Shown: positions 281-30,127 of the stretch, in pieces
Layout: the number at the start of each line of letters is the position of its first letter
Numbering within the stretch: the first letter of the stretch is position 1
Source: Akkermansia muciniphila
GTDB taxonomy: Bacteria; Verrucomicrobiota; Verrucomicrobiia; Methylacidiphilales; Verrucolacustridaceae
Direction: 5' to 3'
Length of the DNA stretch: 32,556 nucleotides
Assembly: GCA_945878585.1 (NCBI GenBank)
Contig: CAMDXQ010000009.1
Location: 1 to 32,556 of the forward strand
Made by a program: the position numbers and the translations under genes
The notes under the pieces: generated by a model
Told to the model about the DNA's origin: nothing
The model's database searches: none
Seen by the model: the letters and a program-made list of their open reading frames with translations, nothing else

Positions 281-410
281 CTTATCAAGAGCAGTGGAGG
301 GGCTGGCCCTACGAAACTGCGGCAACCGGACCCCATCTTCGGATGGGGTTGTTAGGGTGCCAAACCCAGTCAGGCGCTTTCCCGAAAGGGGGAGTGTCGG
401 AAAGGATGAG
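281..410 (+). ncRNA. SAM-I (S-box) riboswitch aptamer
   Basis: CTTATCAAGAGCAGTGGAGGGGCTGGCCCTACGAAACTGCGGCAACC...GGGTGCCAAACCCAGTCAGGC...GGATGAG matches the S-box core. P1 is CTTATC(281-286)/GATGAG(405-410). P2 is GCAGT(291-295)/ACTGC(316-320). P3 is CCCCATCTTCGGATGGGG with a C(UUCG)G loop. P4 is CTTTCCC-GAAA-GGGGGAG. Confidence 0.93.
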
Positions 411-2332: not shown

Positions 2333-3199
2333 ATGAAGGTCCTGATTCTCGGGGCCGGGGGATTGACCGGGCGGTATTTGGTGAAAGAGGCGAAGCGACG
2401 GGGGATGGAAGTGACGGCACTGACCCATTGTGATCTCGATATCACCCAGCCCGATGCGGCGAATGGAGCGTTGCTCAAGTTTCAGCCGGATTGCGTGATC
2501 AACGCTGCTTCTTTGACCCGTTTGGAGCGTTGTGAGGAGGATCCGGTCGCGAGTCGAAAAATCAACACGACGGCTCCGGCGGATTGGGCCAAGGAGTGTG
2601 GAAAAGTGGGTATCAAGTTTGTGCATTTGGGAACGGATTACATTTTTGATGGAACAAAGAAAACGCCTTACGTTCCGGAAGATCCGGCGTCTCCTTTGTC
2701 TCGCTATGGCCACGACAAAGCGAATGGGGAAAAGCAGGTGCTTTTGGCGAATTCACAGGCATTGATCGTGCGGTTGGCTTGGGTGTTTGGACATGGTGGT
2801 TCAACCTTTATGAGCCAGCTTCCGGGAATTTTGGCCGAGCGGGAGGTAGTCGAGTTGGCGGGGGGACGGAGGGGCTCGTGTACCTATGCCGGAGAAGCGG
2901 CGCGGATCATACTCGATTTGGCGAGGGGAGATGCACGGGGAATCTTTCACGGAGTTCAAAGTGGGGAGACCACGTGGAAAGAATTTGCGAAAAAGGCGGT
3001 GGAGTTGATGCGGGGGAGAGGAGGGAAGGTCGCTTGTCGGGAGATTCGGGAACTTTCCTTGGATCAGATTCCGGGGATGAAGGTGGCGCGTCCTGCGTTT
3101 TCGCCTCTGGACGTTCAGCAGACGGAAAAGTTTCTTGGAAGAAAAATTCCGAATTGGGAAAAGGGATTGGAAGAGTATTTGGCAGAAATCGGTTTTTAG
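2333..3199 (+). CDS. RmlD-family (dTDP-4-dehydrorhamnose reductase-like) SDR
   Basis: 288 aa. GAGGLTG nucleotide-binding motif, HLGTDYIFDGTKKTPYVPEDPASPLSRYGHDKANGE (YxxxK). Starts 9 nt after the NIL gene stop. Confidence 0.85.
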   Translation: MKVLILGAGGLTGRYLVKEAKRRGMEVTALTHCDLDITQPDAANGALLKFQPDCVINAASLTRLERCEEDPVASRKINTTAPADWAKECGKVGIKFVHLGTDYIFDGTKKTPYVPEDPASPLSRYGHDKANGEKQVLLANSQALIVRLAWVFGHGGSTFMSQLPGILAEREVVELAGGRRGSCTYAGEAARIILDLARGDARGIFHGVQSGETTWKEFAKKAVELMRGRGGKVACREIRELSLDQIPGMKVARPAFSPLDVQQTEKFLGRKIPNWEKGLEEYLAEIGF

Positions 3200-4180: not shown

Positions 4181-5233
4181 ATGAGAAATCCTTGGCAGTT
4201 TTGGATCGGATTGGGCCTGCTTGCAGGGCTGGCGGTGTGGTGGTTTTCAGGGCATCTTGGTGCGATGACACAGGGAAAAGAAAAGAAACAAGGTGAAGGC
4301 GTGATGGTTCGTCTTATGACGGAGGAAGGGACGACCGGACCGGTTTTCGAAGTTCCAAAAGTAGTGCGATCGGACAAGGAGTGGGCGGCGCGTCTGAGTA
4401 TCGAGCAGTTTCGAATCGGAAGAACCGCTGGAACAGAGCGGGCCTTTTGCGGAGTGTTTCACGATAACCACAAAAAGGGGGTGTATTTCTGTGCGGGTTG
4501 CGGTCTGCCGTTATTTCGATCGGGAGACAAATTTGATTCCGGCACGGGTTGGCCGAGTTTCTTTCAGCCGTTCGCCGAGGAGAATATTGGGGAGCAGACC
4601 GACAACGAACTGGGCATGACCCGGACGGAAGTTCACTGCATTCGCTGCGACATGCATCTCGGCCATGTGTTTCCGGACGGGCCGAAGCCTTCTGGATTGC
4701 GATATTGCATCAACTCAGCTGTGTTGAGCTTTCAGGAAGAGGGTCCGGCTCCAGAGTTGGAGACGCTCGATCTGGGGGCAGGATGTTTTTGGGGAGTGGA
4801 GGAGGTGTACTCGAAATTTGTCGGAACTCGAAAAACAGAAGTGGGATATGAGGGAGGGTGGACCAAGGCTCCGACCTATCAGGAAGTGTGTGGTCATGGA
4901 ACGGGGCATGCGGAGGTGATGCGACTGGTTTACGAGACGAAGAAAACCAACACGCGAAAAGTGGTGGAATATTTTTTCAAGATTCATGATCCAACAACGC
5001 TGAATCGTCAGGGTCCGGATGTGGGGGATCAGTATCGGTCGGCGATCTATTTCACCCGACCAGAGCAGGAAATGGTGATTCGCAGCGTGATCGCGGAGTT
5101 GACGCAGCAGAAAAAGTTCTCAAGACCGATCGTTACTCAGGTGGATCTGGCGGGACCATTCACCCCTGCGGAGGAGTATCACCAAAAGTATTTCCAAAAA
5201 CATGGCGGTGCTGGTTGTCACGTTCCGCAGTAA
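4181..5233 (+). CDS. msrBA: Bifunctional peptide methionine sulfoxide reductase MsrB-MsrA with N-terminal membrane/signal segment
   Basis: MsrB part: CAGCGLPLF...GTGWPSFFQP...CIRCDMHLGHVFPDGP...GLRYCINSA. MsrA part: LGAGCFWGVEE...GYEGG...DPTTLNRQGPDVGDQYRS. N-terminal hydrophobic FWIGLGLLAGLAVWWF. Confidence 0.93.
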   Translation: MRNPWQFWIGLGLLAGLAVWWFSGHLGAMTQGKEKKQGEGVMVRLMTEEGTTGPVFEVPKVVRSDKEWAARLSIEQFRIGRTAGTERAFCGVFHDNHKKGVYFCAGCGLPLFRSGDKFDSGTGWPSFFQPFAEENIGEQTDNELGMTRTEVHCIRCDMHLGHVFPDGPKPSGLRYCINSAVLSFQEEGPAPELETLDLGAGCFWGVEEVYSKFVGTRKTEVGYEGGWTKAPTYQEVCGHGTGHAEVMRLVYETKKTNTRKVVEYFFKIHDPTTLNRQGPDVGDQYRSAIYFTRPEQEMVIRSVIAELTQQKKFSRPIVTQVDLAGPFTPAEEYHQKYFQKHGGAGCHVPQ

Positions 5234-10266: not shown

Positions 10267-11142
10267 TTAAACTGTTCTGGGTATCGAACGGACGATTTGA
10301 ATTCCGTTATTGTCGGCTGAAAGAACCTGGATCTCGACGGATTTGAGGCCTGCCTTCTGTAGAGATCGTTTCATTGCCGCACCGATTGTGGATTCTCCTT
10401 TGAGACAGATCGCCATGACCGTGGGCCCAGCTCCGCTCAGAAAAGCTCCAATGGCTCCCGCCTTTTCGGCGCTATGGATCGCATCCTTGAGTCCGGGCAC
10501 AAGGGTGGCACGGTAGGGTTGATGGAGACGATCGGAGAACGATCCTCGAGCTTCTTCATACTTCTTTTCAAAAAAGGCTGCTGTGATACGAGAGGCACTG
10601 CGTAGATTCGCTACGGCATCCTGAAAGGGGACCCTGGAGGGAAGGAGGGAACGGGCGGCACGGGTGGAGGTTTCGAGTTTTGGAATGGCGGCGACGAACT
10701 TCAAACGATTGGAGACTTTGGTGCGGGCCGGATGGATTCCGGCACAAACGACAAATCCACCCAAAACGGCGGCGGTGATATTGTCGGGATGCCCTTCCAG
10801 AGTGGTCGCGGTCTCAATCAACCAAGGCAGATCCAGGGTTCGACGGTGGATCTTGTCGAGAGCGGCGAGCATGCCAAGGCGGACGGTGGCACTGCTGCCG
10901 AGACCACGAGAGCGGGGGACATGTCCACGAACTACGAGGCGATATGGTTTCCTTGGGAGTTTTCTGGATTTGTGATAAGCCGCTATGATTTCTGAGGAGA
11001 AAGCATCCGGAGTCTCGGGATGTCCAGGCTCGACGGTGATGTAGTTATAGAGATTGAGGGCGAGGCCAAAGGCATCAAATCCCGGGCCAAGATTGGCGGT
11101 TGTAGCTGGAACACGAATCCAGAATGGGATAGGAGGTTTCAC
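10267..11142 (-). CDS. thrB: Homoserine kinase (GHMP family)
   Basis: 291 aa. IRVPATTANLGPGFDAFGLALNLYN, RGLGSSATVRLGML, GAFLSGAGPTVMAIC. Confidence 0.92.
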   Translation of the reverse strand: MKPPIPFWIRVPATTANLGPGFDAFGLALNLYNYITVEPGHPETPDAFSSEIIAAYHKSRKLPRKPYRLVVRGHVPRSRGLGSSATVRLGMLAALDKIHRRTLDLPWLIETATTLEGHPDNITAAVLGGFVVCAGIHPARTKVSNRLKFVAAIPKLETSTRAARSLLPSRVPFQDAVANLRSASRITAAFFEKKYEEARGSFSDRLHQPYRATLVPGLKDAIHSAEKAGAIGAFLSGAGPTVMAICLKGESTIGAAMKRSLQKAGLKSVEIQVLSADNNGIQIVRSIPRTV

Positions 11143-23718: not shown

Positions 23719-24660
23719 GTGCGGATTGTTTTTGCCGGCACGGGAGAGTTTGGGGTTCCCTGCTTGGAGGCGTTGGTGGCCTCGGATGATCATTTTGTCC
23801 TCTCGGTCATCACCCAACCGGATCGTCCTGCCGGCAGGGCACAAAAGTTGCTCGCGTCTCCGATCAAAGAGTGTGCTTTGCGGCATCAGCTGACCGTGTT
23901 CCAACCCGAGGACGTGAATTCCTCAACCACCTTGAGTCAGATCCGGTACCAGAAGCCTGACTTGATGGTGGTGGTGGCTTACGGCCAGATCTTGAAAAAA
24001 CCGATCCTCGAACTGCCGGAAATGGGTTGCTGGAATGTTCATGGCTCGCTTTTGCCGAAGTATCGTGGCGCTTCTCCGATCGCTGCAGCGATTCGTGACC
24101 GGCAAAAGCGGACTGGAGTCACAATCATGCAAATGAATGAGGGGCTGGATACGGGGGATATGTTGGGAAAGATCGCGACACGGATCCGTCCCGCGGAGAC
24201 TACGGGAGTGTTGCATGACAGGCTGGCGGGGAAAGCGGCTCCCCTTCTTTTGGAACTTTTAGAGAAGGCGAAAAAGGGGAAGTTACGAAGTGCTCTTCAG
24301 AACTCGGCAGAAGCTTCCGTTGCCCCGCGGATGAAAAAGGAGGATGGAAAGATTGATTGGAATAAGAGCCCTGAAGAGATTGAAGCACATATTCGGGCCA
24401 TGCAGCCATGGCCTGGCGCGTATACTTGGATTCCGGACGGACAGGATCAGAAGATGCTAAAGGTGTTTACGGTTATTCTATCGAGAAGGGCGAAGGGAAA
24501 ACCCGGGGAGATTGTGGAGGTGAATCCGCATGGGATTCTCGTGGCTGCAAAAAAAGGCGGGGTCCTGCTTCGGGAGGTTCAGTTGGAGGGTCGGAAACGG
24601 ATGACTGCGGTGGAGTATGCGCGTGGAGCGGGGTTGGTAGCGGGCGTGGTTTTGGCCTAG
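23719..24660 (+). CDS. fmt: Methionyl-tRNA formyltransferase
   Basis: GTG start. MRIVFAGTGEFGVPCLEAL, VITQPDRPAGR, WNVHGSLLPKYRGASPIAAAIRDR, GVTIMQMNEGLDTGDML. Confidence 0.96.
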   Translation: MRIVFAGTGEFGVPCLEALVASDDHFVLSVITQPDRPAGRAQKLLASPIKECALRHQLTVFQPEDVNSSTTLSQIRYQKPDLMVVVAYGQILKKPILELPEMGCWNVHGSLLPKYRGASPIAAAIRDRQKRTGVTIMQMNEGLDTGDMLGKIATRIRPAETTGVLHDRLAGKAAPLLLELLEKAKKGKLRSALQNSAEASVAPRMKKEDGKIDWNKSPEEIEAHIRAMQPWPGAYTWIPDGQDQKMLKVFTVILSRRAKGKPGEIVEVNPHGILVAAKKGGVLLREVQLEGRKRMTAVEYARGAGLVAGVVLA

Positions 24661-25378: not shown

Positions 25379-27613
25379 GTGAATTATCCCGAATTTGTCA
25401 AAGTAGCGCCCGAACTGGGGCTAGATCGGTTGTTTGACTATGGGATCCCGCAGCGTTTGCGGGGTCGGATTCAGCTTGGGCAGCGACTGAGAGTGCCTTG
25501 GGGGAAAAGGAGTATCATGGCGTATGCGGTGGAGTTTCCCCTTCGTCCCGAGGTGGAGCAGGTCAAAGATGTGGAGGAGGTGGCTGGGGAGAAACCGCTG
25601 ATTCCTTCTGGTTTATGTCAGTTGGCGCGGTGGATGGCGGATTACTACGCATGTGATTTAGGGGCGGCTCTCAGGACCATTTTGCCGGGGCCCGTTCGAT
25701 CCCACGAGGGGGGAGGAAAGATGGCCTGGTGGATTTCTCCCGTTCCGGGAAGGGAGGAGATGGCGAAAGAGATCCTTCGTGGTGCAAAAGCACAGGAGAA
25801 GGCGTGGCTTCATCTTTTGGGCTGTGGGGGCGGTTGGCAGACGGTTTTAGTGAAAGAGTCGGGAGCGGGAACGGCGGTATGGAGGGCTCTGGTGGATCGG
25901 GGTTTGGCGGAGCGGAGTGAGAAACGGTTGGTACGAGGGGAGGAAGCTGCAGAGGGGGGCTGGCCTGGATCGGAAACACGGCCTGAGTTGGGCAAAGAAC
26001 AGACAGAAGCGATGTTGGCTTGGGAAGAAGAGCGACAAAGAGAGGGCGGGGGACGCCCCATTCTTTTGGAAGGAGTGACTGGGAGCGGAAAAACGGAAAT
26101 CTACTTGCGGGCCATGGAGCAAGTCTTGGGTGAGGGGAAAAATGTGATCATTCTCGTTCCTGAAATCTCCTTAACGCCACAAACTGTCGCACGGTTCCGT
26201 GGTCGTCTAGTTGGGAGGAAGATCAGGCTCTCTGTTCTACATAGCGGGCAAACGGTGGCGGAAAGGAGGGAGTCGTGGCATGAGATTCGGGAGGGTAGGG
26301 CAAGGGTGGTGATTGGTGCGCGATCGGCTCTTTTCGCTCCCTTGGAGAATCTGGGGTTGATCGTGGTCGATGAGGAACATGATGGGGGGTACAAGCAGGC
26401 GGAGGCACCCCGGTATCAGGCCCGAGATTTGGCGGTCGTTCGCGGCCGGACGGAAGGAGCCCCTGTGATTCTCGGAAGTGCGACACCTTGTCTTGAGAGC
26501 GGATGGAATGCGGATCGTGATAAATATCGGCGTGTTCGGCTGACGCAGCGGGTGGACGGGGCGAAATTACCAAAAGTTCATATCGTTGACTTGCGAAAGG
26601 AGGACAAACCGTCAGGTGGTGGACCGATCCTTTTGTCGGAAGAGTTGGTGACGGCTTTGAAGAGTCGACGTGAAAAGGGGGAGCAGAGTCTGGTCCTCCT
26701 GAATCGGCGTGGGTATGCGCCGAGTGTCCAGTGCCCACACTGTGGGAAGGTCGAAGAGTGTGATCGGTGCGCAGTTCCCATGACGTATCATCGAATCGAC
26801 GGGAAGCTTCGGTGCCATTTCTGTGATGCAGATCGGGCTTCCCCCGTTCGGTGTCGTGAGTGTGGATCTCCAGTATTGAAATACACAGGAGCGGGCACGG
26901 AGCGATTGGAGGAGGGGGTAACGGAAATAATGCCAGGGGTCAGGTTGACCCGAATGGATTCGGACAGCATGAAGGCAAGGGGTGCCCATGCAAAAGCTTT
27001 GACCGAGTTTCGGGAAGGGAGGACTGATATTCTTTTGGGCACACAGATGATCGCGAAAGGGTTGCATTTTCCCAATGTGACTTGCGTCGGTGTGGTTGGG
27101 ATCGATGGGGCGTTGAATCTCCCCGACTTTCGGGCTTCGGAGAGAGTCTTTCAGCTTTTGGTTCAGGTCGCTGGACGAGCAGGACGAGGGGAGGTTGCAG
27201 GCGAAGTGTTTGTGCAGACCTACACCCCCTTTCATCCTGCGATTCAGTTTGCGCGACACCACGATGTGGACGGCTTTCGTGAGCAGGAGTTGGAGTATCG
27301 CAAAGCCCATGGGTATCCACCTTTTCGGCGTGCGATCTTGCTCTCTTTTTCAGGCTCAAGTGAGGCCCAGACTCTTGCTTCGGCGGAGCATGTGGTGAAA
27401 AAACTTCGGTTGGCTTGGGGAGACAAAGTGGAGGTTCCGGATCCGTGTCCTGCTCCGATTGCTCGGGTGGAGGGGAGATTCCGGTTTCATGTTTTCCTTC
27501 TCGTCGATAGGGGAGTTCCCATCTTGGGAGATCTGAAGCGGGAAGTATTGGCACCGAAGTGGCCGAGCGGGTTGAAAGTTTCGGTGGATGTGGATCCGCA
27601 GGATCTTCTTTGA
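25379..27613 (+). CDS. priA: Primosomal protein N' (replication restart helicase)
   Basis: 744 aa, GTG start. LLEGVTGSGKTEIYLRAM, VVDEEHDGGYKQ, Zn-binding CPHCGKVEECDRC...CHFCDADRASPVRCRECG. Confidence 0.95.
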   Translation: MNYPEFVKVAPELGLDRLFDYGIPQRLRGRIQLGQRLRVPWGKRSIMAYAVEFPLRPEVEQVKDVEEVAGEKPLIPSGLCQLARWMADYYACDLGAALRTILPGPVRSHEGGGKMAWWISPVPGREEMAKEILRGAKAQEKAWLHLLGCGGGWQTVLVKESGAGTAVWRALVDRGLAERSEKRLVRGEEAAEGGWPGSETRPELGKEQTEAMLAWEEERQREGGGRPILLEGVTGSGKTEIYLRAMEQVLGEGKNVIILVPEISLTPQTVARFRGRLVGRKIRLSVLHSGQTVAERRESWHEIREGRARVVIGARSALFAPLENLGLIVVDEEHDGGYKQAEAPRYQARDLAVVRGRTEGAPVILGSATPCLESGWNADRDKYRRVRLTQRVDGAKLPKVHIVDLRKEDKPSGGGPILLSEELVTALKSRREKGEQSLVLLNRRGYAPSVQCPHCGKVEECDRCAVPMTYHRIDGKLRCHFCDADRASPVRCRECGSPVLKYTGAGTERLEEGVTEIMPGVRLTRMDSDSMKARGAHAKALTEFREGRTDILLGTQMIAKGLHFPNVTCVGVVGIDGALNLPDFRASERVFQLLVQVAGRAGRGEVAGEVFVQTYTPFHPAIQFARHHDVDGFREQELEYRKAHGYPPFRRAILLSFSGSSEAQTLASAEHVVKKLRLAWGDKVEVPDPCPAPIARVEGRFRFHVFLLVDRGVPILGDLKREVLAPKWPSGLKVSVDVDPQDLL

Positions 27614-27650
27614 TCGAACTTCAGCCATTCTTCTGCTAGAAAAGTTCAGG

Positions 27651-29195
27651 ATGGACACCCTTTTTCTTACGACAGCGATCGACTACGCCAATGCGCAACC
27701 TCATCTCGGACACGCGTATGAGAAGGTTTTAACGGATACGTTGGCCCGTTTTGCCCGCCGAACCGGGAAAAATGTCCGCTTTTTAAGCGGACTGGATGAG
27801 CACGGGCAGAAAGTGCAACAGAGTGCTGCAAAAGCAGGCAAGAGTCCTCAAGAATTTGTCGACGGCATTAGCGTTCATTTTCTGGATCTATGGAAGGATC
27901 TACGAGTTGAGCCGGATGATTATTTGCGGACAACGGAATCCAGACACAAAAAGTTGGTCCAAGAGGTTTTGGCACACCTGTATGCCAAGGGGGACATTGT
28001 TAAAGGCACGTTTCATGGGTTTTACAGTGTCCGGGCCGAACAGTTTCTGACCGAGAAAGAGAGGCAGGCCGACGGAAGCTGGCCCGAAATCTTTGGGGAA
28101 GTAGTGGAGCTGACGGAGGAGAACTATTTCTTCAAGCTATCTAAGCATCAGGACTGGTTGAAGGAGTTGTACCAGAAACACCCCGAGATCATCTTTCCGG
28201 AGTTTCGGGCGAAGGAGATTTTGGGTGCTTTGGAAAAGCCTTTGCCCGACCTGTGTATTTCGCGTCCGAAAACGAGATTAGCTTGGGGGATCCCACTTCC
28301 GTTTGACGAGAGTCAGGTGACGTATGTTTGGTTTGATGCCTTGCTCAACTATGTGACAGGCGCTGGAAAAGGGGAGGGGAAGCTGGTGGATTGGGTGCCG
28401 GCAGTGCACGTGATCGGCAAGGACATTATGGTGCCGGCTCACGGAATTTATTGGCCCTGTATGTTGCGTTCTCTGGGATTGCCGATGTTTCAAAAGCTGT
28501 TGGTGCACGGTTTCTGGACGAGGAAGAGTGAGAAACTTAGTAAATCAACAGGCAATGTGGTGGATCCCAAGCTCCTTGCGGAAAAGTATGGGGCAGATTC
28601 GTTTCGGTACTATGTTTTGCGCGAGATGGCACTTGGGCACGATGCGGACTTTGATGAGGCTTCCTTGGCGGCGCGACGCAAGGGGGAGTTGGCTCATGAG
28701 CTGGGGAATTTGCTTCAGAGGGCAGGATCGATGATTGGACGTTATTGCGAAGGGAAGATCCCTGATGCGCCAACTCCAGACGCGGTTTCCGTGGCTTTTC
28801 GGGCAACGGTGTTGGGGGCTTTACGGAAGTGGGACGAGTTAATGAAGGCCAATCAGATTCATTTGGCTTTGGGGGAGCTGTGGAAAGCGGTGCAGGCAGG
28901 AAATCAGATGATCGAGAGCAGGGCGCCTTGGAAATTAGCCAAAGATCCTGCCTTGGCTGGGGAGTTGCGAGCCACCTTGGCGGATGCGATGGCGGTGTTG
29001 GAGTTGGTTTTGCAGGAGGTGGAGTGTGTGATTCCTAGCACGGCACAAGCAGGGTTGAGGCAACTTGGGCTGGAGGGACGTGTCGATGCGCGGGCTAAGG
29101 ATTGGCCTCAGTGGCCGAGCACTCAGGCGGGTCGGGCGTTAGGTAGAATTGAGCCTCTTTTCCCTCTCCTTGAAGAGGAGAAAACAAAGGGTTAG
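27651..29195 (+). CDS. metG: Methionyl-tRNA synthetase
   Basis: [59 protein letters not shown] (KMSKS variant). Confidence 0.96.
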
Positions 29196-29266: not shown

Positions 29267-30127
29267 ATGAGCAAAAAAGAGTACATTCATCCTGAAGCTT
29301 TGGTTGAAACCGACTGGCTGGCCCAACATCTGAATGACCCTGGAATCCGGGTGGTGGAAAGCAACGAGGACGTTCTACTGTACGATACGGGGCACATTCC
29401 GGGAGCGGTGCATATTGATTGGCGGCGGGATTTGCAGGATGCCTTGGTGCGTGACTACATCAGCCCCCAAGCTTTTGCTGAGCTTTGTGGACGAAATGGA
29501 ATCACTCCCGACACCACAGTGATCTTCTATGGTGATAAATCGAACTGGTGGTCTTGTTACGCTCTTTGGGCATTTCGCCTTTTTGGTCATACCAAAGTGA
29601 GAATTTTGAACGGAGGTCGGGATAAATGGGTGGGGGAGAAAAGAGAGTTAACCCGCGACAAGGTGAAAGTTCCCGTAGCGAACTATCCTGTGCCGCCACG
29701 CAGGCTGGATTCGGAGATTCGGGCTTTTTATGAGGATGCTTTGGCATTCAGTCAGAAAAAACTGCCCCTGATCGATGTTCGTTCCCCCGGAGAGTTTAAG
29801 GGGGAGGTCACTCATATGCCCGAGTACCCGCAGGAGGGAGTTCTCCGTGGTGGTCACATCCCTGGCGCGAAGAGTGTCCCTTGGAAAACGGCGGTGAAGG
29901 AGGATGGAACCTTCAAGTCAGCGGATGAGTTGGAGAAAATCTACGTTGAGGGTTGCTCATTGGCACCTGAGACGGAGGTGATCGCTTATTGTCGGATCGG
30001 GGAACGGTCGAGTCACACCTGGTTTGTCTTGAGCTATTTATTGGGCAGGAAGAAAGTGCGCAACTACGACGGATCTTGGACCGAGTGGGGAAATCGGGTT
30101 CGCGCGCCGATCGAACGCTCGAACTGA
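29267..30127 (+). CDS. Sulfurtransferase (tandem rhodanese, thiosulfate/3-mercaptopyruvate type)
   Basis: 286 aa. [32 protein letters not shown], active-site loop [14 protein letters not shown]. Confidence 0.94.

Follow-up and report, generated by a model that had tools for sequence, protein, structure and literature searches.

A SAM-I riboswitch ahead of a probable MetM/MetO-type homocysteine synthesis operon in Verrucomicrobiota

Introduction

Why should a riboswitch for S-adenosylmethionine (SAM) stand in front of a gene that would normally be annotated threonine synthase? The question arises from a 32,556-nt stretch of DNA (the window, meaning the whole stretch that was analysed) from a genome of the Verrucomicrobiota; those of its near relatives that bear a name are assemblies of subdivision 6. 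A sequence-only reading of the window had placed a SAM-I riboswitch at 281–410 and argued for reassigning the genes behind it to methionine metabolism, but gave no enzyme name. The evidence presented here points to MetM/MetO. According to PMC12172450, Hasebe et al. 2024 identified in Streptomyces a homocysteine synthase, MetM, which converts O-phosphohomoserine to homocysteine, and a SAM riboswitch lies upstream of S. albulus metM. The features of the window that bear on this question are as follows.

279–412, + strand: SAM-I (S-box) riboswitch aptamer (RF00162, 72.5 bits), with P3 cap and K-turn variant C312
413–515, + strand: leader and putative expression platform, based on folding models, with a predicted mechanism
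516–1778, + strand: metM-like gene (P0001), a PLP fold-II enzyme with the profile annotation thrC; proposed O-phosphohomoserine-dependent homocysteine synthase
1789–2064, + strand: metO-like gene (P0002), ThiS/MoaD-type sulfur carrier (PF02597, E 2.2e-15; Gly-Gly end; synteny)
2070–2324, + strand: NIL-domain protein (P0003; PF09383, E 1.2e-11; PDB 3dhx, E 4e-9; MetO-NIL fusions)
2333–3199, + strand: RmlD-like reductase (P0004), in the same tight operon
10267–11142, − strand: thrB-like homoserine kinase (TIGR00191, 213 bits summed in frame against a cut-off of 168.25; GHMP kinase domains)

A full-length SAM-I aptamer conserved upstream of metM

Comparison of the window with Rfam by cmscan returned a single match above gathering score, to RF00162 (SAM-I / S-box) at 279–412 on the + strand (72.5 bits, E 2.5e-15; gathering cut-off 44.4 bits). 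The match spans all 108 model positions (1–108), that is, a full-length aptamer, and a genome search counted one SAM-I in the whole 1.48 Mb assembly. The riboswitch proposed from the sequence is thus borne out by the Rfam covariance model, one of the checks that the sequence-only reading had itself named. The C(UUCG)G cap that it had described on P3 was located at 337–342, and the slight departure that it had noted in the K-turn is correct, if minor: C312 stands where the RF00162 model and nine congeners have U. The resulting CGAA form recurs in other MetM-linked aptamers (L087, L093, L134 and L137, among others), and we therefore regard it as ordinary variation.

Of the genomes of 60 relatives, 46 yielded a SAM-I. 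In 44 of these, aptamer and P0001 orthologue share a contig, with the aptamer immediately upstream of the gene; in the other two (G001 and G013) aptamer and orthologue are on separate contigs. G023 has a second SAM-I (L076, G023:C165:2045-2164) close to where a short contig ends; this may reflect duplication in the assembly or may mark a second regulated gene. Of 80 named loci drawn from a wider scan, 77 had a detected MetO close to MetM and 53 a NIL. An RNA family search of 40 of these 80 loci placed SAM-I at 29, always upstream and on the strand of the gene, and did not detect it at the remaining 11. Loci combining SAM-I with MetM include members of the Verrucomicrobiota, Mariprofundus, Gemmata, Myxococcota and NC10. 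The recurrence of the aptamer before orthologues of the gene throughout the order, and in further phyla, excludes a chance match. A scan of viral contigs found no relatives of P0001. Two single-contig genomes of the same class (G094 and G113; 0.9 Mb, 99% complete) retain MetM and MetO (L169 and L170), although the match for one copy is reported to contain a TAA.

P0001 is distinct from canonical threonine synthase

P0001 scores 263.1 bits against the NCBIfam thrC model TIGR00260, whose cut-off is 167.1 bits. This explains its usual annotation as threonine synthase, just as the sequence-only reading had anticipated. Its best PDB matches are threonine synthases as well. Both observations favour one alternative, namely that P0001 is an ordinary threonine synthase under SAM control, O-phosphohomoserine being the branch point between threonine and methionine. 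However, the same genome carries a second ThrC-like gene on contig C101, a canonical threonine synthase, to which P0001 is 37% identical over 343 residues (36% in the alignment). A match to P0001 was found in 60 of 60 relatives, nearly all of which hold both the MetM and the ThrC kind, with one kind only, or fragments, found in a few fragmented genomes. The ThrC paralogue (~36% identical), found in nearly every relative's genome, lacks a SAM-I.

The two kinds are also separated by their motifs. In the alignment, STGNLA is present in all 162 MetM-type sequences and in none of the seven ThrC sequences, the converse being true of N[ST]xNPxRxEGQ (0/162 and 7/7). The canonical ThrC motifs as a set (STGNT, GNAGNIT, NSxNPxRxEGQ and EPxxA) are absent from all 162 MetM-type sequences and present in all seven ThrCs, and AETAGGVT is present in P0001-type sequences. 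Moreover, Tyr211 of P0001 takes the alignment position of Arg160 in the Thermus enzyme 1uim, the residue that we take to bind the substrate phosphate. In a maximum-likelihood tree P0001 falls within a 55-row clade that includes Nonomuraea (support 100/100), and the ThrCs of the same genomes form a separate 100/100 clade; long branches meet in this tree, so that the groups themselves are firmer than the order in which they branch. Distant ThrC-like proteins of the same phylum with an N-terminal CxxCG (L178–L186) were considered as MetM and set aside, lying outside the MetM clade with no MetO neighbour detected. The presence of another ThrC with canonical motifs, the lack of the NSxNPxR motif in P0001 (Tyr211), its separate clade and its linkage to a sulfur carrier, which threonine synthesis does not need, all argue against an ordinary threonine synthase, and we consider that reading very improbable.

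A second alternative is a bifunctional P0001 that yields threonine as well as homocysteine, the riboswitch then serving to keep the branch in balance. In Microcystis a MetO-like putative sulfur carrier gene lies beside a MetM homologue, and a protein of Microcystis that shares 51.6% identity with S. albulus MetM is reported to have threonine synthase activity (PMC12172450). The genomes studied here, however, retain a dedicated ThrC, and dual function in P0001 seems unlikely.

Gene neighbourhood

P0002 follows P0001 after ten bases and ends in PAIAGG. The metM-like, metO-like and NIL genes recur as a trio across the order. The RmlD-like gene P0004 was considered as a pathway member and rejected: it adjoins metM only within the window's genus and is therefore probably outside the conserved module. 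We compared P0001 with MetM through an actinomycete proxy, Nonomuraea gerenzanensis (L087), whose protein is 54% identical to P0001 and belongs to the same clade. At that locus a SAM-I (68.7 bits) precedes MetM and a MetO-like gene follows it.

Several other genes of the window touch on methionine or sulfur. A fused methionine sulfoxide reductase (MsrB/MsrA) lies downstream on the same strand at 4181–5233, a methionyl-tRNA formyltransferase-like formyltransferase and a methionyl-tRNA synthetase-like gene at 23719–24660 and 27588–29195, and a rhodanese-domain protein, in two stretches and possibly a sulfur-transfer enzyme, at 29267–30127.

Other routes to homocysteine

For the metabolic survey we took 28 relatives whose completeness is 90% or more and whose contamination does not exceed 5%. 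MetM is present in 28 of 28. Full-length PF01053 proteins (the type of MetB, MetZ and MetY, the last of which we take to be a PF01053 enzyme), MetX, MetA and DUF39 are all absent in 20 of the 28, and each of these 20 has MetM together with MetH or MetE. Some relatives hold MetM alongside MetX/MetY or MetA. HcyBio (DUF39) was found in none of 60 genomes, and full-length PF01053 in neither the window's own genome nor its genus, which yielded one 126-aa fragment (in G009). The own genome is 87.7% complete, and absences rest mainly on the relatives; it contains a ThiF-type (MoeB/MoeZ-type) E1, the ThrB encoded in the window at 10267–11142 (−) and a fragment of MetH. To judge from gene content, MetM appears to be the only recognisable route to methionine in these bacteria.

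The reassignment to methionine metabolism is upheld by four lines of evidence: the separate canonical ThrC on C101, the distinct clade shared with SAM-I-linked actinomycete MetM, the adjacent ThiS-type sulfur carrier with its GG end and the absence of the known homocysteine routes. It is highly probable that P0001 and P0002 constitute a MetM/MetO-type system of homocysteine synthesis under SAM-I control.

In a metabolic model of Methylacidiphilum fumariolicum no genomic evidence for L-homocysteine production was found, and orphan reactions were added (PMC12341988). One family related to that of the window includes Methylacidimicrobium, and L069 and the named locus L093 are sisters in our tree. 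Since the family with Methylacidimicrobium carries the MetM operon, the homocysteine gap of Methylacidiphilum has a testable candidate; we infer this from relatives rather than from a named Methylacidiphilum locus. Further prototrophs for which no homocysteine route is known have been listed (PMC5764234). Because the MetM family is routinely named threonine synthase, automated reconstructions miss this methionine route, and the SAM-I riboswitch offers a convenient flag by which to correct such annotations.

The NIL-domain protein

Profile comparison links P0003 to MetN, whose C-terminal domain it matches (3dhx, E 4e-9), and the protein contains no cysteine. In six loci (L125, L135, L145, L148, L150 and L153) MetO and NIL are fused in frame, with NIL after the GG, and both domains were confirmed by Pfam in the two fusions tested. 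The fusions support a functional tie of NIL to MetO. Such a fused carrier would need cleavage to expose its Gly-Gly C-terminus.

A NIL domain in the operon might instead signal a sulfide-dependent system akin to the DUF39/NIL-ferredoxin pathway, in which P0003 would act with the enzyme and the ThiS protein would serve otherwise; homocysteine synthesis in Desulfovibrio needs NIL-ferredoxin proteins (PMC5764234). Against this, HcyBio/DUF39 is found in 0 of 60 genomes, P0003 lacks both a ferredoxin domain and cysteine, and the six loci above carry NIL and the ThiS protein as one fusion. We find this reading scarcely credible. Within the MetM/MetO reading, the NIL gene is possibly a new third component of the system. 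By analogy with MetN, from whose methionine-sensing domain it may derive, we tentatively suggest that P0003 could be a methionine-sensing regulatory subunit of MetM/MetO, a role to which we give somewhat less than an even chance. If true, the operon would be under double control, with SAM acting on the RNA and methionine on the protein, and the MetO-NIL fusions would be evidence of direct contact.

Leader and expression platform

The aptamer ends 103 nt ahead of P0001, and no intrinsic terminator was found in 413–515. In folding models, 469–477 (CCGGCCATG) is able to pair with the start-codon region at 515–523. With the aptamer held fixed, modelled accessibility of the AUG falls in seven of ten congeners, in some slightly, and rises in three. 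Translational control by the riboswitch is plausible. An antiswitch formed by 362–371 (AAACCCAGTC) and 477–486 (GACTGGGTTT), an exact 10-bp complement, was also considered; it is exact only in the own genome and its closest relative, and we therefore do not rely on it.

Terminator-like hairpins occur in the leaders of L104, L108, L127, L135, L136, L150 and L153, with the T-run starting 37–49 nt past the SAM-I aptamer. Thus several other MetM leaders have such hairpins, whereas no intrinsic terminator was seen in the window's lineage, which suggests that the same operon is fitted with differing expression platforms across lineages.

Proposed mechanism

We propose that the riboswitch responds to S-adenosylmethionine by reducing the expression of an operon whose product would be homocysteine, the precursor of methionine. 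O-phosphohomoserine, supplied by ThrB and common to threonine synthesis, would be taken by P0001, a member of the MetM family, which would swap its phosphate for sulfur. In the system of Hasebe and colleagues MetO is reportedly a thiocarboxylated sulfur donor. In the window's operon the sulfur would travel on P0002, as a thiocarboxylate at its C-terminal Gly-Gly, and P0002 would be charged by the MoeB/MoeZ-type E1 of the genome. P0003 probably has a regulatory or supporting role towards MetM and MetO, for which it may bind methionine in the manner of the MetN domain.

Comparison with known systems

The riboswitch matches the RF00162 family model over its full length, and the window's aptamer precedes a MetM-type operon. 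With the DUF39 and NIL/ferredoxin pathway (PMC5764234) the window operon has a NIL domain in common, but it differs in having no DUF39, no ferredoxin domain and another enzyme. The C-terminal domain of MetN (e.g. 3dhx, 3tui) is similar in sequence to P0003; that domain is part of a transporter, however, whereas P0003 is a stand-alone protein in a biosynthetic operon.

Wolinella succinogenes has a thiocarboxylate pathway, HcyS/MetY (Krishnamoorthy and Begley 2011, as cited in PMC5764234). There the sulfur comes from a ThiS-type carrier, as proposed for the window. Wolinella MetY is of the PF01053 type, however, and the window's genus has no full-length PF01053.

Lastly, the principle of a riboswitch-controlled MetM/MetO system is already known from Streptomyces. 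The window shares with it a threonine-synthase-like enzyme, an adjacent sulfur-carrier gene and an upstream SAM riboswitch; it differs in belonging to another phylum and in its extra NIL-domain gene, which is absent from the Nonomuraea locus.
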